Assembly: GCA_019084245.1 (NCBI GenBank)
Contig: JAHRFE010000035.1
Location: 1 to 64,000 of the forward strand
DNA: 64,000 nucleotides
Direction of reading: 5' to 3'
Origin: Hoeflea sp.
GTDB lineage: Bacteria > Pseudomonadota > Alphaproteobacteria > Rhizobiales > Rhizobiaceae
Each line of letters starts with the position of its first letter. Position 1 is the first letter of the stretch. The notes under the pieces were generated by a model. That model had not been told where the DNA came from. It ran no database searches and worked only from the letters and a program-made list of their open reading frames with translations. The position numbers were made by a program, and so were the translations under genes. This document shows, in pieces, positions 8,171 to 30,272 of this stretch.

Positions 8171-8390
8171 TGTCCTGTCCTTCGCTTGTTTCGTCCGATT
8201 TCGGTTCGCGCGGTTCAAAGGTGATGAAAAGTCCGTGGAAGGCGATCGCGGCGATGCCACCGAACAAGACGCCCCAGAATGGCGCGCCCGACACAAACTC
8301 GAAAACGCTCCACAGCGTGCAAATCGCCACCACCGCGATACGGAGCGCGAGCGGTTTGAAAAAAGGGTTGTTGAAATCGAAGAGCTTCAA
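8163..8390 (-). CDS. Small two-TM membrane protein in the iol operon (DUF3329-like)
   Basis: This 75-residue protein starts MKLFDFNNPFFKPLALR and has two predicted membrane segments (about residues 17-34 and 38-55), then a charged tail rich in Glu, Asp and Ser. It resembles small DUF3329-type proteins found beside iol genes in rhizobia. It lies 13 bp after iolE and overlaps iolB by 8 bp, so it is part of the operon. Function is unknown. It might assist a membrane or transport step, but nothing in the sequence shows that. Confidence 0.7.
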   Translation of the reverse strand: MKLFDFNNPFFKPLALRIAVVAICTLWSVFEFVSGAPFWGVLFGGIAAIAFHGLFITFEPREPKSDETSEGQDNG

Positions 8391-14064: not shown

Positions 14065-14086
14065 TCTTGACCCGTTTTCCATTTGA

Positions 14087-14102
14087 TGAAACAAATATTC
14101 CA
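14087..14102. promoter_or_regulatory. Candidate RpiR operator between regulator and divergent oxidoreductase
   Basis: TGAAACAAATATTCCA repeats the TGAAA-N6-TTCCA pattern seen before iolC and before the transporter operon. It lies in the 100-bp divergent region, 22 bp from the regulator start and 62 bp from the start of the oxidoreductase, so one site could control both. Confidence 0.55.
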
Positions 14103-14164
14103 CATATTGGCGACAGCCGCAACATGTGTGCCTTTCGAGGCCCCGGAGACACGAGGGAATCACG

Positions 14165-15286
14165 ATGCCGTCGATTGGAATCGGTCTAATCGGGACCGGC
14201 TATATGGGCAAATGCCATGCGCTTGCATGGAACGCGGTCGGGCCTGTGTTCGGGGACTGCCCGATTGTCCGGCTCGTCCACCTCGCCGACGTGGACGCGA
14301 CACTCGCGAACCAAAAGGCGGCGGCGTTCGGGTTTTCGAGATCGACGGGCAACTGGCGCGATCTGCTGTCCGACCCCGACGTGGAGGTGATCTCGATCAC
14401 CGCCCCCAACGCCTTCCATCCGGAAATGGCCATCGAGGCACTCAACGCGGGAAAGCACATCTGGTGCGAAAAACCCATGGCGCCGAAATTCGCCGACGCG
14501 CTGGCCATGCGCGAAGCGGCGCGGAAATCGGGCAGGGCAGCGGTGCTCGGCTACAACTACATCCAGAACCCGATGGTCCGACAAATCGAGAAATTCCTGG
14601 CCGAAGACGCGATCGGAGAGGTCAATCATGTCCGGATCGAAATGGACGAGGATTTCATGGCCGATCCGGCCGAGTTCTTCTACTGGAAGAGCGACGCGAG
14701 TTCGGGCTACGGCGCACTGGACGACTTCGCCGTTCATCCGCTGTCGCTGATCCGGATGCTGTTCGGCCGGATAGCCAGCGTGACCACGGACATGGCGAGG
14801 CCTTATTCGGACCGGCCTGTCCGCGGCGGCGGCCGGCGCGCGGTCGAGACGCATGACATCGCCAGCGTGCTGTTCCGCCTTGAGCAGGGCGCTTCGGGAG
14901 TTCTCATGACCAACCGCGCGGCTTGGGGCCGCAAGGGACGCCTTGCCTTGCAGGTTTTCGGTTCGAAGGGCTCCATCGTCTACGACCAGGAGCGGATGAA
15001 CGAAGTCCAGATCTACCGGACCGGCACTGCGGCCGGCGAGGCCGGATACACCAGCATTCTCGCGGCCCCGTCGCATCCGCCCTACGGAATGTTCGTCCCC
15101 GCGCCCGGGCACGGGCTGGGTTTCAATGACCTGAAGGTGATCGAGTGCCGTCACCTGCTGGCGCGGATCGCGGGCGAGCCGGCGCATGTAATCGATTTCG
15201 AGAAAGGCGTCGACATCGAGCGCGCGGTGCATGCGATGGCAGCCGCGCATGAGAAGCGCGGCTGGGTCGATATCGAATACGATTGA
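14165..15286 (+). CDS. Gfo/Idh/MocA family oxidoreductase
   Basis: This 373-residue NAD(P)-dependent dehydrogenase has an N-terminal Rossmann fold (IGLIGTGYMGKCHA), the EKP motif (WCEKPMAPK) with the catalytic Lys, and a C-terminal Gfo/Idh domain (GYGALDDFAVHPLSLIRMLF). The family oxidises cyclitols and sugars or reduces their ketones. ATG 14165 has a GAGGGAA site upstream. It is divergent from the RpiR regulator and convergent with idhA. The place in an inositol/moc cluster suggests action on an inositol isomer (for example scyllo-inositol) or an inosamine, as with MocA. The exact substrate is not readable from sequence. Confidence 0.85.
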   Translation: MPSIGIGLIGTGYMGKCHALAWNAVGPVFGDCPIVRLVHLADVDATLANQKAAAFGFSRSTGNWRDLLSDPDVEVISITAPNAFHPEMAIEALNAGKHIWCEKPMAPKFADALAMREAARKSGRAAVLGYNYIQNPMVRQIEKFLAEDAIGEVNHVRIEMDEDFMADPAEFFYWKSDASSGYGALDDFAVHPLSLIRMLFGRIASVTTDMARPYSDRPVRGGGRRAVETHDIASVLFRLEQGASGVLMTNRAAWGRKGRLALQVFGSKGSIVYDQERMNEVQIYRTGTAAGEAGYTSILAAPSHPPYGMFVPAPGHGLGFNDLKVIECRHLLARIAGEPAHVIDFEKGVDIERAVHAMAAAHEKRGWVDIEYD

Positions 15287-15316: not shown

Positions 15317-16321
15317 TCAATTCAGGATTTCATCGACGCGTACTGTTCGCCCCTGCTCAACCGACCTGAGCGCGGCGTCTGCGAGCGCAAGCGCAAGCAG
15401 TCCGTCACGACCGTCGGGCGAGGGCGCCTTGCCATCCAGGATGACGGCGATGAAGGCTGCGATCTCGGCGGCATAGGCCTCGGTGTAGCGGGTCATGAAG
15501 AAATCGTGCAGCGGCGGACGGGTGTAGCCGTCGCCGTTGGCAACCTCGATGGAAACCGGCCGCTGGTTCTCGATCGCCACCGAGCCTTTCGACCCATGCA
15601 CCTCCAGACGCTGGTCGTAGCCATAGGTGGCGCGCCGCGAATTGGAGATGGTGGCGTGCTTACCCGACCCCGTCGTCAGGATGACGGAAACGCTGTCGAA
15701 ATCGCCCAGCCCGGCAATCTCCGGGTCGGTCAGCACCGAGGCGGCTGCGGCGACGGTGACCGGCTCCTCTCCAAGCACGAAGCGAGCCATGTCGAAGTCG
15801 TGAATGGTCATGTCGCGAAAGATGCCGCCCGAGGATCGGATGTAGTCCGCGGGCGGAGCGCCGGGATCGCGGGAGACGATCTGCACCATTTCCACATCAC
15901 CGACGTGTCCTGCGTCAATCGCCTGTTTCACCGCCGCGAAATGGGGATCGAAACGGCGATTGAAGCCGACCATCAGCCTGGCGCCGGTTTCATCGACCAC
16001 CTTCAGGCAGTCCTTGACACGGGCAAGCGAGAGGTCGATCGGCTTCTCGCAGAAGATGGCCTTGCCGGCACGCGCGAAACGCTCGATCAGGTCGGCATGG
16101 GTGTTCGTCGGCGTGCAGATGACGACCGCGTCGATGTCCTTGGTTGCCTCGATCTCGTCAATGGTTCTGATGTCGCATCCATACTGCTTGGCGATCGAGG
16201 TCGCCGCCGCCTCGAACGCGTCGGCGACAGCGACGAGCCTGGCGTCGGGATTGGAGGTGACTGCGCGGGCGTGAACTTTGCCGATACGGCCGGCGCCGAG
16301 AAGCGCGAAGTTGATTGTCAT
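15317..16321 (-). CDS. idhA: myo-inositol 2-dehydrogenase
   Basis: This 334-residue Gfo/Idh protein matches bacterial inositol dehydrogenase (IolG/IdhA), which oxidises myo-inositol to 2-keto-myo-inositol, the IolE substrate. It has the Rossmann motif LLGAGRIGKVHA, the catalytic CEKPIDL Lys, and the FRDMTIHDFDMARF stretch that carries the active-site Asp/His pair. It is the last gene of a minus-strand operon after the CUT2 transporter, 134 bp downstream of the ATPase. This placement ties the transporter to inositol uptake. Confidence 0.92.
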   Translation of the reverse strand: MTINFALLGAGRIGKVHARAVTSNPDARLVAVADAFEAAATSIAKQYGCDIRTIDEIEATKDIDAVVICTPTNTHADLIERFARAGKAIFCEKPIDLSLARVKDCLKVVDETGARLMVGFNRRFDPHFAAVKQAIDAGHVGDVEMVQIVSRDPGAPPADYIRSSGGIFRDMTIHDFDMARFVLGEEPVTVAAAASVLTDPEIAGLGDFDSVSVILTTGSGKHATISNSRRATYGYDQRLEVHGSKGSVAIENQRPVSIEVANGDGYTRPPLHDFFMTRYTEAYAAEIAAFIAVILDGKAPSPDGRDGLLALALADAALRSVEQGRTVRVDEILN

Positions 16322-16455: not shown

Positions 16456-17250
16456 TCAGGCCGCGTCCTGGTATTCTTCCCCGGTCTTGGCGCCGGTGAT
16501 GTAGGCAACAACGTCCTGTCCATCGGTTTCGTTCTTGTTCAGATTGGCGACGATGCGGCCGCGCCGGAACACCACGATCCTGTCGACCAGGTCGAACACC
16601 TGGCGCATGTTGTGGCTGACCAGGATCAGTGGTTCGCCCTGATCCTTCAGGGTACGGACGATGTTCTCCACCTGCGCGGTTTCCTGCACGCCAAGCGCCG
16701 CCGTCGGCTCGTCCATGATGGTGAGTTTCGAATGGAAGGTCGCCGTGCGGGCGATCGCAACACACTGCCGCTGGCCGCCGGACATGTGGCGGATCGTGTT
16801 GCGCAGGTTCGGGATCTTGACGCCGGTCTTCTCAAGCGCCTGCCGGGTGCGTTCGCGCATCGCCTTGTAGTCAAGGATGGAGAACGGACCGAGCCTGAAC
16901 TTCACCAGTTCGCGACCGAGGAAAAGATTGTCGGGCACGTCGAGCTCGTCCGCCAGCGCCAATGTCTGGAACACGGTCTCAATGCCGGCCTGGCGCGCAT
17001 CCATCGGATTTTCGAACCGAACCGTCTTGCCGTTGAAGATGATCTCGCCGCGGGTATGCTGCTCGACGCCGGTGATCTGGCGCACGAATGTCGATTTGCC
17101 GGCGCCGTTGTCGCCCATGATGGCGACATGCTCGCCCTTGCGCAGGATAAAATTGGCGCCTTCAAGCGCGTGGATGCCGCCATAGCGCTTGGTCAGATCC
17201 CGTGTCTCGAGAATGATGTCGCCGTTGTCGTGAAGCTTGAGTTCGCTCAT
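16456..17250 (-). CDS. CUT2 sugar ABC transporter ATPase, single domain (FrcA-like)
   Basis: This 264-residue ATPase has Walker A GDNGAGKST, signature MSGGQRQCVAIAR and Walker B LTIMDEPTAALG. Most CUT2 systems use a double-domain ATPase of about 500 residues (RbsA). This is the short, single-domain form known from the rhizobial fructose system FrcBCA. It lies 9 bp after the permease gene. Given idhA downstream and an iol-type operator upstream of the operon, inositol is the likely cargo. It probably acts as a homodimer. Confidence 0.88.
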   Translation of the reverse strand: MSELKLHDNGDIILETRDLTKRYGGIHALEGANFILRKGEHVAIMGDNGAGKSTFVRQITGVEQHTRGEIIFNGKTVRFENPMDARQAGIETVFQTLALADELDVPDNLFLGRELVKFRLGPFSILDYKAMRERTRQALEKTGVKIPNLRNTIRHMSGGQRQCVAIARTATFHSKLTIMDEPTAALGVQETAQVENIVRTLKDQGEPLILVSHNMRQVFDLVDRIVVFRRGRIVANLNKNETDGQDVVAYITGAKTGEEYQDAA

Positions 17251-17259: not shown

Positions 17260-18342
17260 CTAGGATCTTGATGCAGACGGGCGTTGCCGCCACTGGTCGA
17301 GCACGACCGCGCCGACGATGATGCCGCCCTTGACCATCTCCTGATAATAGGCGTCGAGGCGCAGGAAGGTGAAGCCGGAGATGATCACACCGAAGATCAG
17401 CGCGCCGAGCACGGTTCCGATGATGGACCCGCGTCCGCCCGACAGCGACACACCGCCGATGACGGCCATGGCTATGGCGTCGAGTTCGTACATGATGCCC
17501 ATGCCGGCCTGAGCGGTCAGGTTCTTGGAACTCAGCACCAGTGCGGCGATCGCAGCAAGCGAACCGGCGATGGTGTAGACCAGCACCTTGTGGCGGGCAA
17601 CCTTGATGCCAGACATGCGCGCCGCTTCCTCGTTGGAGCCTATGGCATAGGTGTGCTTGCCGTAGACCGTGTATTTGAGGATGAACTGGAACAGGATCGC
17701 TAGTGCGATGAAGATGACCACCGGCATCCAGCCGCCGAGCCCGTTGCCGATGACGGCGTAGTCCTGCGTGGGAAAGGAGATCGGCTGGCCCTTGGACCAC
17801 CATTTGGCGACTCCGCGTGCAGTGACCATCATGCCGAGCGTCGCGATAAAGGGCGGTATGCGCGTATAAGCAATCAACATACCATTGACGAGACCCGCAA
17901 ATAGCCCGCAGCTAAGTCCGACCATGATGGGAATGATCACCGGCAGGTCCATCAGCGTAGGCCCAAAAATGGCCTTCGGATTGGGATTGCCATTGACTAG
18001 CTCTGTCTGGGCGAAACTCATTGCGATCATTGCTGTAGCGCCGACAATCGAGCCGGACGACAAGTCAATTCCGCCCAAAATGATCACCTGCGTCACGCCA
18101 ATCGCGATTATGCCAACGATCGAGACCTGCAGGATGATGATGTAGAGCCGTGCTTCATTAAAGATGCTGTCGAAGCGCCCGGCGGAGTCAAATAACAGGC
18201 TCTGGCCCAGCAACAGCGCGCCGAGTGCCTCGAAGACCAGAATGATCAGCACAAGTGCCGCGAATATGTTCAGTTCATTGGGCCAGGTTCTTTTGGATGC
18301 GTCGAATTTCAGCCCGCCGATGCCGTGAGACACCTCAGCCAT
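17260..18342 (-). CDS. CUT2 sugar ABC transporter permease (FrcC/RbsC family)
   Basis: This 360-residue inner-membrane protein has about ten hydrophobic segments and the BPD_transp_2 features GGIDLSSGSIVGATAMIAMS and GGVSLSGGRGSIIGTVLGAL. It forms the channel for the binding protein encoded upstream (18439-19383) and the short ATPase downstream. The start ATG 18342 has a GGGAGGAG site upstream. It is intact. The substrate is inferred to be inositol from the neighbouring idhA. Confidence 0.88.
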   Translation of the reverse strand: MAEVSHGIGGLKFDASKRTWPNELNIFAALVLIILVFEALGALLLGQSLLFDSAGRFDSIFNEARLYIIILQVSIVGIIAIGVTQVIILGGIDLSSGSIVGATAMIAMSFAQTELVNGNPNPKAIFGPTLMDLPVIIPIMVGLSCGLFAGLVNGMLIAYTRIPPFIATLGMMVTARGVAKWWSKGQPISFPTQDYAVIGNGLGGWMPVVIFIALAILFQFILKYTVYGKHTYAIGSNEEAARMSGIKVARHKVLVYTIAGSLAAIAALVLSSKNLTAQAGMGIMYELDAIAMAVIGGVSLSGGRGSIIGTVLGALIFGVIISGFTFLRLDAYYQEMVKGGIIVGAVVLDQWRQRPSASRS

Positions 18343-18438: not shown

Positions 18439-19383
18439 TCAGTTCTTCGACAGGAAGTTATCGATGTTCTGCGGTGTCACCAGCTGGAAGGGAATGTAGA
18501 CCTTCTGGTCGACGTCTTCTCCCTTGGCGAGTTTCAGCGCCGCATCGAGCGCACCGGAGCCCTGGCCGTGTGCATCCTGGAACACGGTGACATCGAGGTC
18601 GCCGGCCTGCATGGCGACGAGCGCGTCCTGGGTGGCGTCGATGCCGCCGACAATGACATCGGCCATACTGATGCCATTGGCCTTCAAGGCCTGAATGGCG
18701 CCGATCGCCATCTCATCATTGTTCGAGATCACCGCATCGAACTGCGTACCGGTTGACAACCAGTTGGTCATCAGGTCCTGCGCCTCGTCACGCGACCAGT
18801 TGGCGGTCTGTTCGTCGACGATGTTCAGCGTTACGCCGCAATTGCCCGAGGCCATCACGTCGTGAATGTCCTTGGTCCGCTGAACGGCGGCCTGGTTCGA
18901 GAGTTCGCCCATCATCACATAGATGTCGGCTTCTGTCTTGCCGGCTTCCTTCAGGAGGCGGCAGACTTCAAGGGTCTGCAATGTGCCGGATTCCACCTCA
19001 TTGGAAGCGACGAATGCCTGGTTGTTGGGTAGTGTGTCGACGTTGATCGGCTCCCGGTTCACATAGACCAGCGGTACGCCCGCGGCTTCGGCAGCGGCTG
19101 ACATCGCCTGCGTCGCCGAAGTGTCCACCGGGTTGACGACGATGGCGTCGACGCCCGACGCGATGAAGTTGTTGATCTGGTCGAGCTGTTTGGCGACGTC
19201 GTTCTGGGCGTCTTCGATCTGGACGTCCACACCGTCCATGCCATCGGCCAGATCCTGGATACCGTTGCGCAAAACGGTCAGGAAGTTGTCGTCGAACAGC
19301 GCCATGGTGACGCCGATGTTCTCGGCATGCGCTGCAGTGCTCATCAAGACGGCAACTGCTGCGCCTAGAATTGTTTTCTTCAT
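18439..19383 (-). CDS. CUT2 periplasmic sugar-binding protein (inositol/rhizopine type)
   Basis: This 314-residue protein has a clear signal peptide (MKKTILGAAVAVLMSTAAHA) and a periplasmic-binding-protein type I fold (IGVTMALFDDNF, VDAIVVNPVDTSATQ, VISNNDEMAIGAIQAL, VGGIDATQDAL). Family members such as IbpA and MocB bind inositol or rhizopine. It is the first gene of the transporter-idhA operon. The 229 bp upstream hold a TGAAA-N6-TTCCA palindrome shared with the iol promoters, which supports an inositol role. Confidence 0.88.
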   Translation of the reverse strand: MKKTILGAAVAVLMSTAAHAENIGVTMALFDDNFLTVLRNGIQDLADGMDGVDVQIEDAQNDVAKQLDQINNFIASGVDAIVVNPVDTSATQAMSAAAEAAGVPLVYVNREPINVDTLPNNQAFVASNEVESGTLQTLEVCRLLKEAGKTEADIYVMMGELSNQAAVQRTKDIHDVMASGNCGVTLNIVDEQTANWSRDEAQDLMTNWLSTGTQFDAVISNNDEMAIGAIQALKANGISMADVIVGGIDATQDALVAMQAGDLDVTVFQDAHGQGSGALDAALKLAKGEDVDQKVYIPFQLVTPQNIDNFLSKN

Positions 19384-19612: not shown

Positions 19613-20443
19613 TCACAGGCGGGACCGGATAAACGACATGCTTTCCTGCAACGCCCAGGCAATGTCGTCGTGCGTATGGACCGCCCGCGAAAATGGCTCG
19701 TAAGAGAAGGCGCCTGTGTAGCCCGCTGCACTAAGCGCCCGGATCTGCTCTATATTTCTCAAGCGGTCGTTCTCGTCGACCAAAATGCGGTGGCCATCCT
19801 GCATGGCTTCGGGCGCCAGCGACGGATCAACAACGCCCGAGATGTGGACGATGCCGGTATGGTTGGGGAAGATCGGGCCGCTGCCGGCAAGGTGATGATG
19901 GAACGTGTCGTGGACCAGCCTGTAGCGCGTCGCTCCGCCCACCGCCTCGATCGCTTCCACTGCTTCCGATTTCAAGCGCAAAGACGAGGTGGTGAAGCCA
20001 AGCGGTTCGATCAGGGCAATCATGTCCGCTTCCTCCAGCATCGGCAGGATTTCCCGGAGCGCGCCGCGAAGTTTGCCCAGTCGGTCTTCGTCATTCATCC
20101 GCGCGCCGTCATTGCTGGGTATGAGGCTGATCGATTCCGCACCGCTCTCTTTCGCCTGAGCGATGAGGAGATCGACCTTCACGCGCATCGCGTCGGACCA
20201 GACATTGAAGCCATAGGCTTCCGACAGGCCTAACAGCCTGAGCCCCTTGTCGCGGGCATAGGCGCCGATTGTCGCTGGCGCCTCGCCGTCAAAGAATGGC
20301 CGCTCCGTCAGTTTCTTGTCGGCGAGGTCGTTGCGCAACTCGATGCCGATACATCCGAGCGAGGCGGCGAGGTCGATGAAGCTGCGGCAATCGAGGCGCG
20401 GCGCACTCATGTGATTGAGCGCGAAATTCAGGTTGGTGGCCAT
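19613..20443 (-). CDS. TIM-barrel sugar isomerase/epimerase (IolI/IolO-like)
   Basis: This 276-residue xylose-isomerase-like TIM barrel has the metal-binding acidic and His residues typical of the family in IALIEPLG, LVHDTFHHH, ISGVV and FSYEPFSR. Relatives interconvert inososes or keto-sugars. ATG 20443 with GGGGAG upstream gives the common start (MATNLNFALNHMSAPRLDC). It stands between the LacI gene and the transporter operon, all on the minus strand. The inositol/moc surroundings suggest an inosose or inosamine derivative as substrate. That is an inference. Confidence 0.82.
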   Translation of the reverse strand: MATNLNFALNHMSAPRLDCRSFIDLAASLGCIGIELRNDLADKKLTERPFFDGEAPATIGAYARDKGLRLLGLSEAYGFNVWSDAMRVKVDLLIAQAKESGAESISLIPSNDGARMNDEDRLGKLRGALREILPMLEEADMIALIEPLGFTTSSLRLKSEAVEAIEAVGGATRYRLVHDTFHHHLAGSGPIFPNHTGIVHISGVVDPSLAPEAMQDGHRILVDENDRLRNIEQIRALSAAGYTGAFSYEPFSRAVHTHDDIAWALQESMSFIRSRL

Positions 20444-20595
20444 GTGGAATTCTCCCCGTCGCACCGGCCGCATGGCCGGCTCTGTCAACATCAAGAATGG
20501 TCAGCGCTGGGTTCCGCGGTCAATGCCGATGTGCAAGAATATCCCTCATTGCTGATAGGAAAACGATCCAGCGCGCGGGATTTCCATCTTTCTCC

Positions 20596-21630
20596 TCATA
20601 CGCTTTCCGGGACGAAGATATCGAAGGGCAGGAAGATCTGGCCTGGCGTTTCGGAGGGTCCATCGTGTACGGCGTGGATCATCAAATCGATCAGCGAGGT
20701 GCACAGCTTTTCGAGCGGGGTGCCGATCACGGCAGTGACGATTCGGTCCTGCAGGGCGGCACGGGAATCGTCGGTCAGTTCGTTGACGACAACGGTGGGC
20801 ACGGGGTCGGGGTCGGCCTCGCGCAGCGCCTTGATCGCGCCCTCCATGCCGCCGCCGGCGACATAGAGTCCGGTGATGTCGGGATGCCGGTCGAGCAGGC
20901 TCAGCGTCGCCTCATAGGTAACCTGCCGCGTTTCCAGATTGACGAGCGTGTCGAGGTGCACAAACCCCGGAGCATGTTCACGGAAATACGAGCGGAAACC
21001 GGTCTCGCGCAATTCATGACCATGCCATCGGTGGCTGCCGACGAAGAGAGCGACCTTGCCCGGCCGCGGGGCGGTGCGCGCGATGAACCAGGCTGCGGTG
21101 CGTCCGACGCGCATGTTGTGCGTGCCGACATAGCTTTCGCGCACGCCCTGGGCGCAGTCGGACAGCACCGAAAACACCGGAATCCCGGATTTCTTCAGGT
21201 CGAGAACAGCTTCGGTCACGAGGTGATGATCGATACTGACGAGGGCCACGGCGTCACAGTGGCGCTTCAGACGGGCAAGTCCTGTCGCCACATCCTCCGC
21301 CGACTGGTTACGCAGGAATTCGATACGCGCATGGCCGCGGATCTTTGGTGTTTTTTCGACAACTGCGGTCAGTTCGCGGGCCAGAGCCTGGTAGAAGGCC
21401 TGATGCTGCTTTTGCAGAAGAAAGCCGAACGTCATCTCCGGCAGGCTGGCGATCATGCGTTGGCGGATCAGGGAGGCGGCGTGATAGCCGATCTCGCTGG
21501 CAGCCTCGTAGACGCGGCGCGCTGTCTCCTCGCGGACGCGGTGGCGGCCGTTCAGCACCCGGTCAACAGTGGCGACGCTGACACCCGCCTTTGCCGCCAC
21601 GTCAGTGATGGTCGGTCTCGATCCCATCAT
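20596..21630 (-). CDS. LacI-family transcriptional regulator
   Basis: This 344-residue LacI-type repressor has an N-terminal HTH (TITDVAAKAGVSVATVDRVL, NGRHRVREETARRV) with the hinge, followed by a periplasmic-binding-like sensor domain. It is divergent from mocDEF with 131 bp between the starts, so it probably controls the oxygenase genes and perhaps the TIM-barrel gene downstream on its own strand. The ligand is unknown. A sugar-alcohol or a modified inositol would fit the context. The start may be ATG 21630 or 21627. GAGGAAAT is just upstream. Confidence 0.88.
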   Translation of the reverse strand: MMGSRPTITDVAAKAGVSVATVDRVLNGRHRVREETARRVYEAASEIGYHAASLIRQRMIASLPEMTFGFLLQKQHQAFYQALARELTAVVEKTPKIRGHARIEFLRNQSAEDVATGLARLKRHCDAVALVSIDHHLVTEAVLDLKKSGIPVFSVLSDCAQGVRESYVGTHNMRVGRTAAWFIARTAPRPGKVALFVGSHRWHGHELRETGFRSYFREHAPGFVHLDTLVNLETRQVTYEATLSLLDRHPDITGLYVAGGGMEGAIKALREADPDPVPTVVVNELTDDSRAALQDRIVTAVIGTPLEKLCTSLIDLMIHAVHDGPSETPGQIFLPFDIFVPESV

Positions 21631-21649: not shown

Positions 21650-21716
21650 CTATCATTGGATTCGCAAGAAATTGCAAGCTGATGATAGAAAACCTTTCAT
21701 TGACATTGATCGCAAT
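21650..21716. promoter_or_regulatory. Divergent promoter region with candidate LacI operators
   Basis: The region has an inverted repeat CTATCAT (21650-21656) and ATGATAG (21682-21688), and a second near-palindrome ATTGATCGCAAT (21705-21716). LacI-family sites are usually short palindromes with a central CG or similar. A TTGACA box at 21700-21705 fits a -35 element for mocD, but I see no good -10 at the usual spacing. Confidence 0.4.
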
Positions 21717-21761: not shown

Positions 21762-22850
21762 ATGTCCCAGGGAAAACGTGACTACAGCCTGACCGGTCGT
21801 GACGCCCAGATGGCGGTCGAGACCGGCCTCGCTTCGGCCGAGTGGTACCACACCGACGTACCGCGAAAGGCCATGAAGGAATTGATGAAGCGCAAGGACG
21901 GCCCGGCGATCCGGGACACCGTCATCTGGCTCGGCTCCATGATCGTGCTGGCGGGCGTTGGGGTGGCATTGTGGCCGAGCTGGTGGTCGGCGCCGTTCTT
22001 CCTTGCCTATGGCGTACTCTACGGGTCGGCGACGGATTCCCGCTGGCATGAATGCGGCCACGGCACTGCATTCAAGACGCGCTGGATGAATGATGTGGTC
22101 TACCAGATCGCGTCCTTCATGATCATGCGCAATCCTGTTACCTGGCGCTGGAGCCATACGCGCCACCATACCGACACGATCATTGTCGGGCGCGATCCGG
22201 AAATCGTCTTCATGCGTCCGCCGGACCTCGCGCCCATCTTTCTCAATTTTTTCGGCGTCATCGATGCCTTCAACGCCATGAGCGCGATGGTGAGGAATGC
22301 ACTGGGCATCATCAGCGCGGAGGAAAAAACCTTCGTTCCCGACAGCGAGCAGCCGAAAGTGATGTTCATCGCCCGCGTCTGGTTGGCGATCTATGCCACG
22401 GTGATCGCGCTTGCCATCTCCACGGGGTCGATCCTGCCGCTGATGCTGGTCGGGCTGCCGCGTCTCTATGGCGCCTGGCATCATGTCATGACTGGTCTGC
22501 TGCAGCACGGCGGGCTGGCCGAGAACGTCATCGACCACCGGCTGAACAGCCGTACGGTCTATATGAACCCGATCAGCCGCTTCATCTACTGGAACATGAA
22601 CTACCACGTCGAGCATCACATGTTCCCGATGATCCCATATCATGCGCTTCCGAAGCTGCATGCGCTGATCAAGGACGACCTGCCGGCTCCGAACACATCC
22701 ATACTCGACGGCTATCGCGAGATGTGGCCTGCTGTGCTGCGCCAGCTGAGATATGAGGACTACTTCGTCAGGCGCGAATTGCCGCCGACGGCAAAGCCCT
22801 ACAAGGCCGAGTATCACCAGCTCGCGCCATCCATGCTCGCGGCGGAATAA
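21762..22850 (+). CDS. mocD: MocD-like non-haem di-iron oxygenase (fatty-acid desaturase fold)
   Basis: This 362-residue membrane-associated protein has the desaturase His boxes HECGH (96-100), HTRHH (132-136) and HVEHH (282-286), which hold a di-iron centre. It is followed by a Rieske ferredoxin and a ferredoxin reductase. This gene trio matches MocD-MocE-MocF of rhizobial rhizopine catabolism, needed for O-demethylation of 3-O-methyl-scyllo-inosamine. ATG 21762 has a GGAGGAGGA site. Desaturase-fold hydroxylases can also act on alkanes or sterols, but the inositol neighbourhood makes a methylated cyclitol the most likely substrate. Confidence 0.8.
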   Translation: MSQGKRDYSLTGRDAQMAVETGLASAEWYHTDVPRKAMKELMKRKDGPAIRDTVIWLGSMIVLAGVGVALWPSWWSAPFFLAYGVLYGSATDSRWHECGHGTAFKTRWMNDVVYQIASFMIMRNPVTWRWSHTRHHTDTIIVGRDPEIVFMRPPDLAPIFLNFFGVIDAFNAMSAMVRNALGIISAEEKTFVPDSEQPKVMFIARVWLAIYATVIALAISTGSILPLMLVGLPRLYGAWHHVMTGLLQHGGLAENVIDHRLNSRTVYMNPISRFIYWNMNYHVEHHMFPMIPYHALPKLHALIKDDLPAPNTSILDGYREMWPAVLRQLRYEDYFVRRELPPTAKPYKAEYHQLAPSMLAAE

Positions 22851-22875
22851 CACCAACAATACAAGGGAGAGACCG

Positions 22876-23190
22876 ATGACCCAGTGGATCGAGGCATGCG
22901 GCGCCGGTGATATCGAAGAGGAAGACCTGATCCGCTTCGATCATGACGGCAAGACATATGCGATCTACCGCAGTCCGAGCGACGAGTTTTTCGCCACCGA
23001 CGGATTGTGCACGCATGAGAAGGTGCATCTTGAGGGCGGTCTGGTCATGGATTATGTGATCGAGTGTCCCAAGCATAATGGTCGCTTCGATTACCGAACC
23101 GGCGAAGCCCTCGCCGCACCGGTTTGCGTCAACCTAACCACCTATCCGGTGAAGGTGGAAGGCGGCAGCGTCTTCATCGGGATCGACTGA
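22876..23190 (+). CDS. mocE: MocE-like Rieske [2Fe-2S] ferredoxin
   Basis: This 104-residue soluble protein has the Rieske cluster motif Cys45-x-His47 and Cys64-x2-His67 (CTHEKVHLEGG and CPKHNGRFD). It should pass electrons from the reductase encoded 1 bp downstream to the MocD-type oxygenase upstream. ATG 22876 has an AGGGAGA site. The length is normal for ferredoxin-type Rieske proteins. Confidence 0.88.
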   Translation: MTQWIEACGAGDIEEEDLIRFDHDGKTYAIYRSPSDEFFATDGLCTHEKVHLEGGLVMDYVIECPKHNGRFDYRTGEALAAPVCVNLTTYPVKVEGGSVFIGID

Positions 23191-23191
23191 A

Positions 23192-24376
23192 ATGGCGGGC
23201 ATGGTCATCATCGGGGCAGGCGAGTGCGGCGTGCGCGCCGCCTTCGCCCTTCGGGAAGCAGGCTATGAGGGGAAATTGACGCTGATCGGCAACGAACCGC
23301 ATCTGCCTTACGAGCGGCCACCGCTGTCGAAGAGCTTTCCTGTCGAGATGAAACCGATCGCGGCGGAGCAGGCATTCGCGGAGATCGGCATCAAACTGCT
23401 GCGCGGCGTGACAGTTGCGCAGATTGATCCGGAAGCGCGGAACGTTCTGCTTGGTGACGACCGGACGCTTGCCTACGACAAACTGCTGATCGCGACCGGC
23501 GCGCGGGCCCGTCTGTTTCCGGGTATGGAAAAAGCCCTGACATTGCGAACGGTGGACGATGCCAAGGCGCTTCTGGGGGCAATCACGGGGCAAACGCATC
23601 TGGCGATTGTCGGCGGCGGCTTCATCGGCCTGGAACTGGCGGCAACGGCGAGGGGGCTGGGTGCGAAGGTTACAGTGGTCGAAGCGGCGGACCGGCTTAT
23701 GGCACGCGCCGTGCCAGTGGAGATTGCTGCTGTCGCCGCCGAGCGCCACCGCGCCGAAGGTGTTGACCTCATCCTTGGCGAGCAGGTGGTGAAGGCCAAC
23801 GAAAACTCCGTCGAACTGGCCGATGGCCGGGTTATCAGATGTGATCTTGTTGTCGCTGGTGTCGGCGCGGTGCCGAACACAGGCCTGGCGGAGGCGGCGG
23901 GTGCCGGGATTGCTAATGGCATCATCGTCGATCACGCCTTTCGCACGGTGGTGCCGAATGTGTTTGCAGCTGGCGATTGCTGTGCATTTCCCTATCGGGG
24001 CAGGAACGTGCGGCTGGAAAGCTGGCGCGCCGCGCAGGATCACGCCAATCATGTGGCCCGCGCCATGCTGGGCGACGAAACTGCTTATGCCAAATCGCCA
24101 TGGTTCTGGTCAGATCAATACGAACTGACCTTGCAGGTCGTCGGCCTTCTGGAGACAGACAAGCCCTTCCATCGGCGCGAACTTGGTGATGGCGGATTCA
24201 TCCTGTTCCAGACGGACGAAAATGGCCGTCTTGCCGCGGCCGCAGGCATCGGCACAGGCAATGCAGTGGCCAAGGATATACGTCTCGCCGAAATGATGAT
24301 CGAGCGTGGCAGCGCGCCCGATCCGGCGAAGCTCGCCGATGCATCCGTCAATCTGAAGGCTCTGCTCAAGGGCTGA
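23192..24376 (+). CDS. mocF: MocF-like FAD-dependent ferredoxin reductase
   Basis: This 394-residue flavoprotein has an N-terminal FAD dinucleotide motif (VIIGAGECGVRAA), an internal NAD(P)H motif (IVGGGFIGLELAATA) and the second FAD motif GDCCAFPYRG. The C-terminal reductase domain is complete. It transfers electrons from NAD(P)H to the Rieske protein just upstream. The one-base gap from mocE indicates tight co-expression. The order oxygenase-ferredoxin-reductase is that of mocDEF. Confidence 0.88.
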   Translation: MAGMVIIGAGECGVRAAFALREAGYEGKLTLIGNEPHLPYERPPLSKSFPVEMKPIAAEQAFAEIGIKLLRGVTVAQIDPEARNVLLGDDRTLAYDKLLIATGARARLFPGMEKALTLRTVDDAKALLGAITGQTHLAIVGGGFIGLELAATARGLGAKVTVVEAADRLMARAVPVEIAAVAAERHRAEGVDLILGEQVVKANENSVELADGRVIRCDLVVAGVGAVPNTGLAEAAGAGIANGIIVDHAFRTVVPNVFAAGDCCAFPYRGRNVRLESWRAAQDHANHVARAMLGDETAYAKSPWFWSDQYELTLQVVGLLETDKPFHRRELGDGGFILFQTDENGRLAAAAGIGTGNAVAKDIRLAEMMIERGSAPDPAKLADASVNLKALLKG

Positions 24377-24403
24377 ACCGCTCCAGGAAGGGGAGGGGAG
24401 ACA

Positions 24404-24667
24404 TGAACCGCAATCGCAGGACCGTCGCCGACATGCAGGCGATGAAGGGCAAGCGGCAATTGTGCAAGCTCAATGTCAGAACACCGGACGAGGCGAGCGG
24501 GGCCGCCGAGGCAGGCATGGGCGGGGTCTGGCGGTGACGCGCGATATCTCTTCGGCGAAGACGCGCTTGGATATATGCGTGGCCATCGTCCGCCCCACGC
24601 CCGGGTCTATGGCGATTTCCGCGCCGAATACGACCGGCTGCAGCGTGAGCGTGTCGCCGGACATTGA
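24404..24667 (+). pseudogene. Decayed PanB-like (ketopantoate hydroxymethyltransferase family) gene
   Basis: ATG 24404, with GGAGGGGAG upstream, begins MNRNRRTVADMQAMKGKRQ, the N-terminus of a PanB-like enzyme. The frame then stops at about 24537. A second frame over 24520-24667 reads SGGDARYLFGEDALGYMRGH and HARVYGDFRAEYDRLQRER, matching the C-terminal region of the same family, before an early stop. About 150 middle residues are gone, the frame is shifted and the end is cut. It lies 27 bp after mocF, so an intact relative was probably the fourth gene of this operon. Confidence 0.6.
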
Positions 24668-25182: not shown

Positions 25183-25734
25183 TCACACCAGTTGTTGGCG
25201 GGCAAGTCTGCGGAACCAGCGGATGGAGAGGACGATGCCGGCAGCAACATAGGTCAGCGGACAAAGTGCAAGCATCAGGAGGCCGGCCCGCTGTTGATGC
25301 GCGACAGCGGCATCCAGGGACGCGATGGAGCCATGAGCAGGGTAGAGGGACGAATTGCTGAAAACGAGCAAGGCTCCCAACAGGCAGAAAAGCTTTCCTG
25401 TCAGAAGCAAGGCAACGAGCGCCCGCCATGAGCCGCGTTCGCTTGTCGTCACGACAGCACCCCAAAACCACAAGGCTGAGAGGAACAGCGATATATGCAT
25501 GGCGATGCCGGCAACGGGGTACTGCATGGCGGCTTCCAGTGCTGCAGGACTATGCCACCCCCAGAGCAGCCCGATCTGCAACGCCGTTGCAAGGAAGATG
25601 GACGTCTCAAGCGAGGCGGGAAGGCGCGTGCGCAGACTGTAGGCGATCGCAGGTGCGAGCGCATTCATCAACGCGATATGCCAGAGCATCATGGCGTCAA
25701 TGGTCCCCATCATCGCGTGCGCTTGCATCTCCAT
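25183..25734 (-). CDS. CtaG/caa3-type cytochrome oxidase assembly membrane protein
   Basis: This 183-residue protein has about five hydrophobic segments and resembles caa3-type CtaG proteins involved in cytochrome c oxidase assembly (MMLWHIALMNALAPAIAYSL, GLLWGWHSPAALEAAM). The family often has 200-300 residues, so this is a short member. ATG 25734 has GGAG 7 bp upstream. It is divergent from the oxidase genes that start at 26067 and belongs to the same functional cluster. Confidence 0.65.
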   Translation of the reverse strand: MEMQAHAMMGTIDAMMLWHIALMNALAPAIAYSLRTRLPASLETSIFLATALQIGLLWGWHSPAALEAAMQYPVAGIAMHISLFLSALWFWGAVVTTSERGSWRALVALLLTGKLFCLLGALLVFSNSSLYPAHGSIASLDAAVAHQQRAGLLMLALCPLTYVAAGIVLSIRWFRRLARQQLV

Positions 25735-26066
25735 TCCGGCTCCTGACTGTTGAAACTATCGCCTGCAAGGAGGCCTGACAATGATCCTGACATGTGCAAC
25801 GCTTGCCTGACCAGAGTGTTCCAGCAAAAAGCTGCTCCGGTAATCGCGGTGCTCGAAGGAAGGGCACCGTCACCCGATTGCCAGCCACGGTCGAAAACCG
25901 ATTGAGCACCGGTCCCCACTTATTCCTGCGCTGGCAGCTTCGCGCCTTGGTCCACCGGGTGAACAGCCCGAGCGGCACATTTCTCGGGCCGATTTTTCGT
26001 TTTGGCGGAACCATTTGTGTTCTCGCGGGTTAATCATGCTTGTCGATGCGGTGAGGGGAACGCCAT
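25735..26066. other. Divergent intergenic region upstream of the oxidase cluster
   Basis: No gene was seen in 332 bp. A GGAAC (26007-26011) followed after 16 bases by GGTT (26028-26031) resembles an EcfG general-stress promoter (GGAAC-N16/17-CGTT), with one mismatch in the -10 element. It would read into the CopD-like gene at 26067. Nothing else clear was found. Confidence 0.4.
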
Positions 26067-26564
26067 TTGGTCGCAATCCTGAAATTGATTCACATTGCGA
26101 CGGTCGCGATCTGGATGGCTGGACTGGTGGGGCTGCCGGGCCTTTATGTGCAGCGGGCCAAGACCTCCAGCGACGGTGAACTGCTGCGTCTGCAACGCAT
26201 GGTTCGCTACGCCTATCTCGTGCTGATGTCGCCGGCGGCCTTCGTCGCCATTGCAAGCGGCACCATTCTCATTTTCCTGCGCGAGGCTTTCGAGCCGTGG
26301 CTCTCGGCAAAACTGGGGCTGGTGGGACTGTTGGCCCTCATCCACATCCTGACCGGTCTGGTCATCATTCGCCTGTTTGATGAAGGCGAAATCTACACCG
26401 CCTGGCGCTTCGTCGTCGTGACGATTGTTTCCCTTCTCCTCATGCTCTGTGTGTTCTTCCTCGTTCTGGCAAAGCCGGAATTCAGCGCCGCGCCTTCGGT
26501 CCTTACCGAACCGGGCGGGCTTGCCCGGCTGTTCGACGAGCTTAATCCTTGGCGGAAACCATGA
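26067..26564 (+). CDS. CopD/HemJ-like four-TM membrane protein
   Basis: This 165-residue protein has four predicted membrane helices. The first holds LKLIHIATVAIWMAGLVGLP, similar to the His-containing first helix of CopD and HemJ-type proteins. A TTG start at 26067 has GAGGGGA upstream. It precedes the cox genes and overlaps the end of the DUF2231 gene on the other strand by 23 bp. A role in haem or copper handling for the oxidase is plausible but inferred. Confidence 0.6.
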   Translation: MVAILKLIHIATVAIWMAGLVGLPGLYVQRAKTSSDGELLRLQRMVRYAYLVLMSPAAFVAIASGTILIFLREAFEPWLSAKLGLVGLLALIHILTGLVIIRLFDEGEIYTAWRFVVVTIVSLLLMLCVFFLVLAKPEFSAAPSVLTEPGGLARLFDELNPWRKP

Positions 26565-27042
26565 GGCCGATGCCGTGATGAAAGATCAGTTTGCCACCGT
26601 GCCAGCCCGCCAGTCCTGCGAGCGCGGCTGCGAGCGCGGAAAGGAAGAGACCGTGCGGAAGGACGGACTCCGGATAGTTCAGCCTGACACCCCAGTTCAA
26701 TCCCATCACGGCGATCAGCGTCATCGCCGCGACGCCGTGCGCCCAACTCGCGACCCTGCCGCGAATGCCGGCAACCAGAAGCAGTTCGGCGGTTCCCACC
26801 AGCCCGGCGACGACGCCCGCGGCAAAGGCTCCTCCGGCAGACCAGATCCCGACGCGCACCCAGAACGGATCGCCCGTCCACCAGTACAAAATGTCGATGC
26901 CGAATGTCGCAAACGTCAAGGCAATCGGGAAATGGACGCTCATGGCGTGAAGGGGATGACCGGCAACCGCAACCGCGGACGTGACATCCTGATGCTGGAT
27001 CAGCTTTTCTACCGGGTTGGAGCCGTCGCTTTCAGATGCCAT
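26542..27042 (-). CDS. DUF2231-family membrane protein
   Basis: This 166-residue protein has four hydrophobic segments and the typical DUF2231 start of the core (GHPLHAMSVHFPIALTFATF). DUF2231 proteins are membrane proteins of unknown role, often close to cytochromes or haem-copper oxidases. I start at ATG 27042. A longer GTG start at 27060 would overlap the divergent coxB start. The two start codons are only 3 bp apart, so the promoters must lie in the neighbouring coding regions. Confidence 0.75.
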   Translation of the reverse strand: MASESDGSNPVEKLIQHQDVTSAVAVAGHPLHAMSVHFPIALTFATFGIDILYWWTGDPFWVRVGIWSAGGAFAAGVVAGLVGTAELLLVAGIRGRVASWAHGVAAMTLIAVMGLNWGVRLNYPESVLPHGLFLSALAAALAGLAGWHGGKLIFHHGIGLMVSAKD

Positions 27043-27045
27043 CGC

Positions 27046-27759
27046 ATGGTTCCTTTTCACTCTATAAGCCGGTTAACCCGTATTTTGTTCCATTCCGGCG
27101 CTGCCGGCTCGGCTCTGCTTCTTGCGGGATGCTCCGGCACCTATTCGGCGCTCGATCCGGCGGGTCCCCATGCTCATACAATCGCGCAGCTGTGGTGGGC
27201 AATGCTTCTTGGCGCCGCCATCCTGTTTGTCCTGGTGATGGGGCTGTTCGTCCTGACCTTGTTCCGGCCTGGTTTCGGCTCCGGCGTCTCGATCAAAGGC
27301 TGGATCGTTGCGGGAGGTCTGCTACTGCCGATCCCGGTCCTGGTGGCGCTGAACTTCTATGCCCTGTTTCAGGGCGAGCGGCTGCTGCCCGGTGACGTTG
27401 CATCTGCCTACCGCATTGAAGCCCATGCGCGCCAGTGGCAATGGGAATTCCGGTATCTCGATGAACCCGGCGCGCCCTCCACCGTCGATGTCCTGCACAT
27501 TCCGGCAGGCCTGCCGATTGAGGTCGTGGCCACAAGCGAAGACGTCATCCACAGTTTCTGGGTGCCGCGGCTCGGCGGCAAGATCGACGCGACGCCGGGG
27601 CACGCCGCGCGTATCCGCATCGAGGCTGATCGTCCGGGGATCTTTGGCGGGGTCTGCGCCGAATATTGCGGAACCGGCCATTCACGCATGCGATTCCGGG
27701 TCGAGGCGCATGAGGGACCCGATTTCAGATCGCTGGTGGAAAGAGGGTTTGAACAATGA
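27046..27759 (+). CDS. coxB: Cytochrome c oxidase subunit II
   Basis: This 237-residue lipoprotein-like subunit has a signal with lipobox LLLAGC, two membrane helices (about 49-70 and 82-105), and a C-terminal cupredoxin domain. The CuA ligands are seen in VIHSFWVP (His) and CAEYCGTGHSRM, the full C-x3-C-x3-H-x2-M motif. It accepts electrons from cytochrome c. It overlaps the subunit I gene by 4 bp (ATGA). A TTG at 27085 is an alternative start. Rhizobial relatives are sometimes named CoxM. Confidence 0.88.
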   Translation: MVPFHSISRLTRILFHSGAAGSALLLAGCSGTYSALDPAGPHAHTIAQLWWAMLLGAAILFVLVMGLFVLTLFRPGFGSGVSIKGWIVAGGLLLPIPVLVALNFYALFQGERLLPGDVASAYRIEAHARQWQWEFRYLDEPGAPSTVDVLHIPAGLPIEVVATSEDVIHSFWVPRLGGKIDATPGHAARIRIEADRPGIFGGVCAEYCGTGHSRMRFRVEAHEGPDFRSLVERGFEQ

Positions 27760-30272
27760 AGAAAGCCGCCGAACCCGGTTCCCTGACGTTGCACAAGGCG
27801 CTTTCCGAGGTGTGGGGCACAAAGCCTGGCCTCGGCCAGCTGGCTGCCGTCAACCACTCCACGATCGGCAAGCGCTTCATGATCACGGCGGCGGTCTTCT
27901 TTGCCATTGGCGGCCTGCTGGCGATGCTGATCCGGACGCAGCTTGCGACGTCGAGCAGTCCGTTCATGGAAGAGGGCGTCTATGCCCAGGTCTTCACCAT
28001 GCATGGAACGATCATGATGTTCCTGTTCGCCATCCCGATGCTGGAAGGCGCCGCCATCTATCTGCTTCCCAAGATGCTCGGCGCACGCGACCTGGCCTTC
28101 CCGCGCCTCACCGCCTACGGTTACTGGTGCTACCTGTTCGGCGGGACGATGCTGCTGATGGCTCTGCTCTTCGGCGTGGCGCCGGATTCGGGCTGGTTCA
28201 TGTACACGCCTCTGTCGAGCAGCACCTATTCACCCGGCATCAATGCGGATGTCTGGCTGCTCGGCGTGACCTTTGTCGAGATTTCCGCCTTATGCGCCGC
28301 CGTCGAGCTGATTGTCTCGATCCTGAAGCTCCGCGCTCCGGGCATGTCGCTGGAGCGCATGCCGATCTTTGCCTGGTACATGCTGGTGGTTGCGGGCATG
28401 ATGCTGGTCGGCTTTCCGCCGCTGATCCTCGGCTCGATCCTGCTCGAGGCCGAGCGCGCCTTCGACCTGCCGTTCTTCGATCCAACCCGCGGCGGCGATC
28501 CGCTGCTGTGGCAACATCTGTTCTGGCTGTTCGGCCATCCCGAGGTCTACATCATTTTCCTGCCCGCCGCCGGCATGGTCTCGACCTTCCTGCCGGTCTT
28601 TGCCGGCCGGCCGCTCGCAGGCTATCGCGCCGTCGTAGTGTCGGTGATCGCCATGGGGTTCATCTCCTTCGGGCTCTGGGTGCATCACATGTACACCGTC
28701 GGCATCCCGCACCTGGCGCTCGGCATCTTCTCCGCCGCCAGCGCGCTGGTGACAATCCCCACGGCAATCCAGATTTTTGCCTGGCTTGCAACGCTCGCCC
28801 ATGGACGGCCGCGCTTCAGCATACCGATGCTCTATGTGTTCGGCTTCCTGTTCGTGTTCGTCCTGGGTGGGCTCACGGGCGTGATGCTGGCGATGGTTCC
28901 CTTCGACTGGCAGGCGCATGACACGCATTTTGTCGTGGCACACCTTCACTATGTGCTTGTAGGCGGTTTCGTCTTCCCGCTGCTTGGGGCTGCCTATTAC
29001 TGGCTGCCGCATTTGACCGGCCGCTTCCCGCTCCTGCAACTGTCGAAGGCGGCGTTCTGGCTGATCTTCATCGGCTTCAACGTGACGTTCTTCATCATGC
29101 ATCTGACCGGACTGCGCGGGATGCCGCGCCGGGTGCATGTCTATCCGCAGGAGCCGGGAATGGAGCTGTTCAACCTGATCTCCTCGCTCGGCTCCTTTGT
29201 CATGACCATCGGCTTCGCCCTGGTGCTGCTTGATTTCGTGCTTCAGATCCGTTTCGGCCGCCTTGCCGGACGGAACCCCTGGAAGGCCGGAACGCTGGAA
29301 TGGGCGATGCCGACGCCGCCGGCCCCTTACAATTTTGCCTCGCTGCCGAAGATAACGGGTCGGGCCGACCAGTTGGACCCTGACGCGCTCGGGCCCCAGC
29401 TTGCCGCAGGCAAGGGCTATCTCGGGTTCGTGCGCAATGGCCAGATGGAGACGCTCGCCGTCGATGCCGTCAGCGGGCGGCTTGAGCAGATCATCGTGTT
29501 GCCGCGGTCAACCTTCCTGCCGCTCCTGACCGCCCTGATGACAGGTGTGTTCTTTCTGCTGATGCTGTTCAAGCTTTATGCCTTGGCCCCGTTTGCGCTC
29601 ATCGGCGTGGCGGGGATGTTCCTCGTATGGACGCGCGCCACCGGAGCCAGGCAGGATCTGGATACTCTCGACGCCGGATGTGGAGAAACGGCGCCGGTCC
29701 ATTTCCAGAGCCGTGGCGCGCCGTCGGAATGGGCGATGGCGCTGACGCTTGTCGCCAACGGCACATTGTATGCGTCGTTGCTGTTCGGCGGGCTCTTCCT
29801 CTGGGTTTCCGCGCCAAACTGGCCGGTTGCGCAGACTACCTTCCATAATGACCGTCTGGTTCAGATCATCACGCTCTTTGTGCTGGCAGTCGCGCTGTTT
29901 GCCTCAAGGCAGAGCGTCCGAACCGGGGCCCAGGGGCGCATTGGCTGGCTGGCAGCGCTCGCTGCCTCGCATCTCGTGGCCGCAGCACTGTTTGGCTGGA
30001 TGGCCTATGGCATTGTGCCGCTCAACACCCAGCACGCGCTGTTTGCGGTCATCTTCGCAGTCCACTTCTATGCCGGGTTCCATGCCCTGCTCGGTGTGGT
30101 CTTCGCGCTCTATGGGATCTGGCACGTCCTTGGCGGCTACGTCTCCCCGATGCGCGACCTTGATCTTCGCATCGGGGCGCGGTTCCATGCCTATGCCGCC
30201 AGCGCAGGCATTCTGGCGCTGGTGTTTGTGTGGCAACTCGCGATGCTTGGCTCAGGGGGCGATCCGGCATGA
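27756..30272 (+). CDS. Fused cytochrome c oxidase subunit I + III
   Basis: This 838-residue protein combines subunit I (about residues 1-560) and a subunit III-like domain (about 590-838). The haem-copper centre motifs are FGHPEVY (Cu ligand His, cross-linked Tyr and the gating Glu), WVHHMYTVG and HFVVAHLHYVL. The Glu in HPEVY marks an A-type oxidase. The III domain starts near SEWAMALTLVANGTLYASLL. Such fusions occur in the alternative CoxMN-type oxidases of rhizobia. It is the catalytic core of this accessory aa3 oxidase. Confidence 0.9.
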   Translation: MKKAAEPGSLTLHKALSEVWGTKPGLGQLAAVNHSTIGKRFMITAAVFFAIGGLLAMLIRTQLATSSSPFMEEGVYAQVFTMHGTIMMFLFAIPMLEGAAIYLLPKMLGARDLAFPRLTAYGYWCYLFGGTMLLMALLFGVAPDSGWFMYTPLSSSTYSPGINADVWLLGVTFVEISALCAAVELIVSILKLRAPGMSLERMPIFAWYMLVVAGMMLVGFPPLILGSILLEAERAFDLPFFDPTRGGDPLLWQHLFWLFGHPEVYIIFLPAAGMVSTFLPVFAGRPLAGYRAVVVSVIAMGFISFGLWVHHMYTVGIPHLALGIFSAASALVTIPTAIQIFAWLATLAHGRPRFSIPMLYVFGFLFVFVLGGLTGVMLAMVPFDWQAHDTHFVVAHLHYVLVGGFVFPLLGAAYYWLPHLTGRFPLLQLSKAAFWLIFIGFNVTFFIMHLTGLRGMPRRVHVYPQEPGMELFNLISSLGSFVMTIGFALVLLDFVLQIRFGRLAGRNPWKAGTLEWAMPTPPAPYNFASLPKITGRADQLDPDALGPQLAAGKGYLGFVRNGQMETLAVDAVSGRLEQIIVLPRSTFLPLLTALMTGVFFLLMLFKLYALAPFALIGVAGMFLVWTRATGARQDLDTLDAGCGETAPVHFQSRGAPSEWAMALTLVANGTLYASLLFGGLFLWVSAPNWPVAQTTFHNDRLVQIITLFVLAVALFASRQSVRTGAQGRIGWLAALAASHLVAAALFGWMAYGIVPLNTQHALFAVIFAVHFYAGFHALLGVVFALYGIWHVLGGYVSPMRDLDLRIGARFHAYAASAGILALVFVWQLAMLGSGGDPA

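Follow-up and report, generated by a model that had tools for sequence, protein, structure and literature searches.

What does a MocDEF-type oxygenase system do when it lies beside genes of inositol catabolism? The question is raised by a stretch of 64,000 nucleotides from Hoeflea sp. (GCA_019084245.1, contig JAHRFE010000035.1; G000:C25 in our numbering), called the window below, which belongs to a 4.82 Mb genome and carries mocD, mocE and mocF, all intact, at 21762-24376. To judge from sequence comparison, the locus is a real, conserved system of the known mocDEF type in variant form. It is the self-contained version, a single block containing an importer, a putative demethylase, a putative isomerase and iol genes of its own. 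We consider it fairly probable that the cluster is an O-demethylase system for plant O-methylated inositols (pinitol- or ononitol-like) with its own iol pathway. What we infer here is the demethylation, the substrate (pinitol or ononitol being the best guesses), the role of the isomerase and that of the one-carbon (C1) genes.

The oxygenase operon and its neighbours

The initial annotation had named a MocDEF-type oxygenase system, and this is borne out by the family matches listed below and by the three His boxes of MocD (H96..H100; H132..H135-H136; H282..H285-H286), which are invariant in 42 aligned sequences including that of the window and likewise in a 13-sequence alignment. It had also placed iolB, iolE, iolD, iolC, idhA (iolG), a CUT2 importer, an extra Gfo/Idh enzyme and a TIM barrel nearby. 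Family searches recovered all of them, with the corrections that the extra Gfo/Idh gene is on the + strand, that the ABC ATPase has one domain and that there is a further, RpiR-type regulator.

21762-22850, + strand: mocD-like membrane di-iron oxygenase (362 residues; PF00487, 126 bits)
about 22873-23190, + strand: mocE, Rieske [2Fe-2S] ferredoxin (PF00355; TIGR02377 MocE_fam_FeS, 168.9 bits, cut-off 136.15)
23192-24376, + strand: mocF-like ferredoxin reductase, binding flavin adenine dinucleotide (FAD) (PF07992 and PF14759 Reductase_C; closest NCBIfam model HcaD, below its cut-off)
24403-24664, + strand: PanB-like (ketopantoate hydroxymethyltransferase-like) remnant, two pieces in different frames
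20596-21630, - strand: LacI-family regulator of the FixV/mocD-adjacent type, divergent from mocD (family search and tree)
19613-20494, - strand: TIM-barrel protein, likely an inosose isomerase by its predicted fold, which resembles STM4435 and IolI (PF01261)
18439-19383, - strand: CUT2 sugar-binding protein (SBP) of the MocB family, 67.5% identical to MocB of a rhizopine locus, outside the MocB clade
17260-18342, - strand: CUT2 permease (PF02653)
16456-17250, - strand: single-domain ABC ATPase (family search)
15317-16321, - strand: iolG, inositol 2-dehydrogenase (TIGR04380, 421 against a cut-off of 355)
14126-15286, + strand: second Gfo/Idh/MocA oxidoreductase, 66% identical to a gene beside folD/purU in Rhizobium sp. 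SL42
13198-14163, - strand: RpiR-type regulator (HTH_6 and SIS; family search)
11172-13085, - strand: iolC kinase/aldolase fusion (NF047869, 716 against a cut-off of 600)
9324-11156, - strand: iolD, an extra copy in the genome (TIGR04377 passed)
8404-9309, - strand: iolE (TIGR04379 passed)
7373-8296, - strand: iolB (TIGR04378 passed)

The true start of iolB is probably downstream of the 5' end called, because the TIGR04378 match starts at residue 59.

That a lipid or sterol desaturase system lies by chance beside iol genes is highly improbable. The Pfam name of the MocD match is indeed FA_desaturase, and distant desaturases of about 30% identity occur elsewhere in the genus, but the lipid-desaturase equivalogs DesB and DesA gave MocD only 32.2 and 19.9, both far under the cut-off of 500, and MocD, LacI, SBP, TIM barrel and iolG recur jointly in many loci. 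PDB sequence searches with MocD and with the MocD alignment gave no meaningful match. In a MocD tree of 105 rows (from matches with at least 33% identity and 75% coverage), the window protein groups with mocD-type loci, joining first a same-genus genome (support 99), then Rhizobium sp. Q54 and Pseudorhizobium endolithicum (87), then a Rhodobacteraceae metagenome-assembled genome (84). From this and all other trees, and from the operator sets, we left out L001 (a copy of the window locus) and L126 (a copy of L066).

A plasmid cluster of Rhizobium sp. Q54 (L041) is collinear with the window, in the order iol-RpiR-iolG-ABC-SBP-TIM-LacI and then mocDEF, and the P. endolithicum locus (L048) is collinear over a shorter stretch, from iolC on. 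Unlike the window, both have the second Gfo/Idh gene after mocF, and Q54 has one extra short-chain dehydrogenase/reductase gene. Given this nearly identical order in Q54, and LacI in 77 of 80 genome-scan loci (the best 80 of 589), the gene arrangement is not due to chance.

Two observations concern adjoining sequence. A minus-strand open reading frame at 14186-15250, without family match, overlaps the + strand Gfo/Idh gene and looks like an antisense shadow. Adjoining the mocDEF operon, 25183-30272 encodes a CtaG-like assembly factor and cytochrome c oxidase subunits II and I, which seem unrelated.

Recurrence of the locus and its regulator

We tabulated 103 loci with a MocD of at least 55% identity, counting the window and its own copy L001. 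The loci read comprise the 80 genome-scan loci, 15 plasmid loci (14 with gene annotation), 4 further plasmid loci and short loci of relatives. Several plasmid loci were hand-picked as different-looking, rhizopine ones among them, and the genome-scan loci therefore give the fairer count. Controls without a close MocD were 16 loci of 2.7-3.9 kb, a weak comparison with most of the others, which span 10-37 kb. Among the 103 loci we identified MocE in 99, MocF in 94, LacI in 92, a PanB-like gene in 60, SBP in 55, the TIM barrel in 54, iolG in 38, the second Gfo/Idh gene in 21, PurU in 19, FolD in 11 and MocR in 5 (L034, L037, L038, L044, L072). Only the MocR of L038 was scored against NF052281, which it passes (739 against 650); the other four are called MocR by at least 45% identity to it. 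The 80 best genome-scan loci have LacI in 77, a PanB-like gene in 48, SBP and TIM barrel in 45 each, iolG in 32, PurU in 12, FolD in 5 and MocR in 1.

The divergent LacI protein, taken by the initial annotation as the operon's own regulator, is thus the usual partner of mocD. That of the window shares 53-64% identity with its counterparts at loci from other genera. A divergent gene of the LacI family also precedes the distant mocD of Rhizobium sp. K102 (33% identical to the window LacI), Caballeronia (43%) and Paraburkholderia (27%). The LacI protein presumably controls the mocDEF operon of the window.

A shared operator was sought in 89 LacI-mocD regions (L001, L002 and L036 were left out of the 92 LacI loci). 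The motif TGATAG-N3-CTATCA, with at most 2 mismatches, lies between LacI and mocD in 83 of the 89, against a mean of 0.58 and a maximum of 3 in 50 shuffled sets; as the regions share descent, these copies are not 83 independent events. A wider scan of 87 loci (1.84 Mb) gave 157 sites, and one shuffle of 86 loci (the window excepted) gave 19. The sites lie mostly between LacI and mocD (95), with 12 before the binding-protein gene in 10 Mesorhizobium loci, 2 before the TIM barrel, 1 before the permease, 26 within genes and 21 where there is no gene of the studied set. The operator is absent from the 400 bases before mocD in the 5 rhizopine loci (scores -15.1 to -0.7, the lowest training site scoring 12.4).

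Within the genus, a close MocD occurs in 2 of 18 genomes (G000, the one studied here, and G007), two of the 18 being only 75-77% complete. The window's kind of iolD (at least 72% identity) occurs in four (G000, G007, G009 and G010), and a different iolD (45-48%) in 12, including this one, where it lies at G000:C32:247357-249198 (47%). On this sequence evidence, the genus has an extra iol set that accompanies mocDEF in two genomes. In G007 they are found on separate short contigs, the iol genes on one and mocDEF on the other, and are not seen linked. For G009 and G010, the 20 kb examined around the iol genes showed no MocD, LacI or TIM barrel, nor was any close MocD found genome-wide.

Proposed chemistry and substrate

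In the route we propose, the importer would bring in the cyclitol, and the membrane di-iron protein MocD would receive electrons from NAD(P)H by way of the flavoprotein MocF (FAD) and then the Rieske protein MocE. MocD would hydroxylate the O-methyl carbon, and the resulting hemiacetal would give free inositol and formaldehyde. The freed inositol would be oxidised by IolG, the product converted by the IolI-like TIM barrel to an inosose accepted by IolE, and the breakdown completed by IolE, IolD, IolB and IolC and by an IolA/MmsA-type enzyme encoded elsewhere in the genome (methylmalonate-semialdehyde dehydrogenase of this type is over the cut-off at two places). Formaldehyde would enter the folate pool, possibly by means of the PanB-like, PurU or FolD genes that many relatives keep, the PanB-like one being decayed here.

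The predicted structure of the TIM-barrel protein (pLDDT 90.3) matched Salmonella STM4435 best (2q02, 4hgx; E 3.7e-23; 29% identity) and then Bacillus IolI (1i60; E 1.1e-15; 16% identity), pointing to a fold shared with both. IolI isomerises 1-keto-D-chiro-inositol to scyllo-inosose (PMC3878828; papers are cited here from the accessible portions of their text). Pinitol is 3-O-methyl-D-chiro-inositol, which in this route would be demethylated and then oxidised by IolG, so an IolI-type isomerisation is a step that a pinitol route would need. By its number, STM4435 would belong to the Salmonella inositol island GEI4417/4436, although the accessible text does not print its name (PMC10783015).

Legumes widely produce pinitol, ononitol or both, and Lotus nodules accumulate both (PMC8730688). 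Pinitol (145 uM) is the most concentrated component of a Mimosa root exudate that modestly induced a mocDEF homologue (1.5-2.1x) along with iol genes, which its authors read in terms of rhizopine (PMC5789663). Ononitol is also the source from which rhizopine is made, and a rhizopine biosensor tried with myo-inositol, ononitol and pinitol had scyllo-inosamine and one enantiomer of 3-O-methyl-scyllo-inosamine as its reported activators (PMC6668481). In Pseudomonas syringae, mocDEF is described beside xylA and without mocCABR in the accessible text (PMC5132102). A partial literature search found no title assigning mocDEF to pinitol or ononitol, and no paper joining folate deformylase, demethylation, formaldehyde and Rieske.

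Directly 3' of mocF, the window retains two pieces of a PanB-like gene (24403-24522 and 24518-24664) corresponding to aa 1-40 and aa 181-229 of the query, the middle ~140 aa being gone. These are the sole matches to the PanB-like gene in the genome, in which no PF02548 protein was found, while the same search was positive in 11 of 14 control genomes. Wherever a PanB-like match exists it is on the same strand (64 of 64 loci, counting the window remnant and the one duplicate, L126), and in 63 of the 64 it is at most 250 nt from the preceding moc gene. Two PanB-like proteins scored 102 and 106 against the PanB model, far under its cut-off of 208, which suggests a side branch of the family and not the biosynthetic enzyme itself. 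Away from mocDEF, the genome's best PurU match is 51% identical to the PurU of a LacI-type locus. The presence of PanB-like, PurU and FolD genes alongside mocDEF in many relatives fits an O-demethylation that releases formaldehyde. In the rhizopine locus of S. meliloti BL225C (L034:17770-18578), the PanB-like gene lies in two frames and seems broken.

These C1/folate genes bear on whether MocDEF might instead hydroxylate the cyclitol ring or a side group, for example making a dehydrogenase substrate, with no demethylation, which we regard as unlikely. Members of PF00487 hydroxylate and desaturate many substrates, the NCBIfam model nearest to MocD is the arginine hydroxylase GntB (though at 37.5 against a cut-off of 380), and the PanB-like gene is lost in the window, all of which speak for hydroxylation. 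The company of C1/folate genes in relatives speaks for demethylation, as does the fact that the compound with which mocDEF has been associated in print, rhizopine, carries an O-methyl group (PMC10107442, PMC3538637).

Another possibility, quite unlikely in our view, is that the real substrate is some other sugar-type ether or amine and that the iol genes are a neighbouring pathway. The closest NCBIfam model to the second Gfo/Idh protein is levoglucosan dehydrogenase (261 bits, cut-off 650), and many Rhizobium loci (e.g., L065-L070) have no iol gene or importer within the stretch read. However, the window has iolG, the IolI-like fold and a MocB-family binding protein.

Several points weigh against an O-methyl-inositol demethylase. 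Demethylation is a chemistry that we infer for the MocDEF family. The predicted structure of MocD is weak (pLDDT 61.6), with no PDB fold match at E <= 0.001 (best E 0.02). The window has no good operator copy between LacI and mocD, the best place (21679-21701) scoring -0.5, and operator matches across the whole window are at chance (12 against 11.4); its LacI may read a changed site. A PanB-like gene was not found at the threshold used in 43 of the 103 loci, some of them short, and the step appears dispensable or replaced, as the gene is broken in the window and split between frames in BL225C. The loci were selected by similarity to the window MocD and are not a random sample. Finally, the extra iol set of G009 and G010 occurs without a close MocD, and thus serves also without it.

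Rhizopine loci, ancestry and FixV

The initial annotation had offered an inosamine (rhizopine) as one of two kinds of substrate, and this half was not supported. The rhizopine loci mocDEF/mocCABR of S. meliloti L5-30 and R. leguminosarum have the same kind of oxygenase, Rieske protein and reductase, the same binding-protein family and an inositol pathway downstream, and four rhizopine catabolic units are described, along with moc-boxes (PMC10107442). Unlike those loci, the window has LacI and not MocR, has its own iol set attached, and gave no MocA, MocC, deacetylase or moc-boxes at the cut-offs used. None of 24 genome matches to the rhizopine MocR model NF052281 exceeds its cut-off of 650. 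The best, scoring about 430 at 51079-52521, belongs to a GntR/aminotransferase MocR-like regulator (51022-52530) that passes the PdxR model (382 against 320). The 10 genome matches to MocA have 27-35% identity, none above 35%, and the best-scoring (29%) is iolG. No match to MocC of at least 55% is present in the window, whose iolE is 44% identical to MocC, and neither a deacetylase nor a second rhizopine Gfo gene was found there at the locus-table thresholds. Moc-box matches are at chance level (44, with 38.6 expected), none of them between LacI and mocD.

A true rhizopine (3-O-methyl-scyllo-inosamine) catabolic locus with an exchanged regulator is therefore very unlikely, since in the genome no MocR passes its cut-off and no MocA-like match exceeds 35%. 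In its favour, the window MocD shares 73-77% identity with those of the 5 rhizopine loci and the SBP resembles MocB. In a binding-protein tree (55 rows, midpoint root), the 5 MocB proteins form one clade (support 99) within a 17-row set that includes 12 LacI-type rows (93), while the window SBP falls in a separate 27-row set (96). Most likely, on these comparisons, the window cluster is not a rhizopine locus but a relative of the rhizopine genes. The rhizopine binding-protein model NF052284 was dropped as a test for MocB, as the binding proteins of two MocR loci fail it too (39.8 and 43.6 against 420). In a Shinella sp. PSBB067 locus (L149:13896-24778), LacI, TIM barrel, mocDEF and a PanB-like gene occur together with a MocB-like binding protein that is 79% identical to MocB, and no MocR was seen.

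A concatenated MocDEF tree (96 rows; L005, L006, L007, L008, L035, L036, L110, L131 and L132 left out) places the window within a 6-row set of LacI-type loci (support 96). The 5 rhizopine rows share a 12-row set (99) with 7 LacI-type rows, every one of the latter from Sinorhizobium; forcing the 5 into one clade is not rejected (p-AU 0.629). For a rooted tree of 45 rows we chose 36 LacI-type rows (35 and the window), leaving out L002, L043 and L094, which are near the window. In it, the 5 rhizopine rows and 6 LacI-type rows form an 11-row set (99). The alternative, with the 36 LacI-type rows together and without rhizopine, is 21 log units worse and is not rejected (p-AU 0.167). Rhizopine mocDEF appears to nest among LacI-type loci, the formal rooting test not being decisive, and we favour, without calling it proven, the view that LacI regulation came first and MocR was acquired later.

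The adjacency of LacI, TIM barrel and mocDEF has already been published, with an inositol derivative proposed as the compound involved (PMC3538637). The FixV/Msi119/mocDEF neighbourhoods of rhizobia described in the accessible text have in common a divergent FixV-group LacI, a TIM-barrel epimerase-like gene and mocDEF; beyond these, the window has the importer, iolG, the second Gfo/Idh gene and iolBEDC in one block, and its PanB-like gene is decayed.

In M. loti CJ3sym, a LacI protein 55% identical to that of the window (L160:4197-5267) precedes a NifA that passes TIGR01817 (726 against 529), the pair spanning L160:4197-7637. CJ3sym is a strain that received the R7A symbiosis island, and we take the LacI protein, by position, to be FixV. 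It falls within a 57-row set (support 96) of mocD-adjacent regulators in a tree of 61 of 99 rows, and the signal of FixV is therefore likely to be of the same chemical class.

A wider reading, which we hold tentatively as possible rather than probable, is that LacI-type mocDEF is a general bacterial O-demethylase system for plant O-methyl-inositols (pinitol, ononitol) and outnumbers rhizopine catabolism by far among the loci examined here; that rhizopine mocDEF and mocB were recruited from LacI-type loci with a new regulator; and that FixV, the activator of nifA2 in Mesorhizobium loti and a member of the same regulator clade, lets nitrogen fixation there be licensed by host O-methyl-inositol in the nodule. 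If so, many genes named after the rare rhizopine would instead handle abundant plant cyclitols, the system would provide a clear candidate for a membrane di-iron O-demethylase of aliphatic ethers, and the FixV signal for turning on nifA2 would be narrowed to a short list of inducers.

The stretch between fixV and nifA2 matches the 15-base operator motif with 3 mismatches at best, which we estimate is not unusual for that length. Just after fixV, at L160:5273-5288, there is a TGATA-N6-TATCA sequence, chosen by eye post hoc and a lead only. It lies about 2 bases beyond the 536-base stretch that the accessible text of PMC3538637 gives as sufficient.

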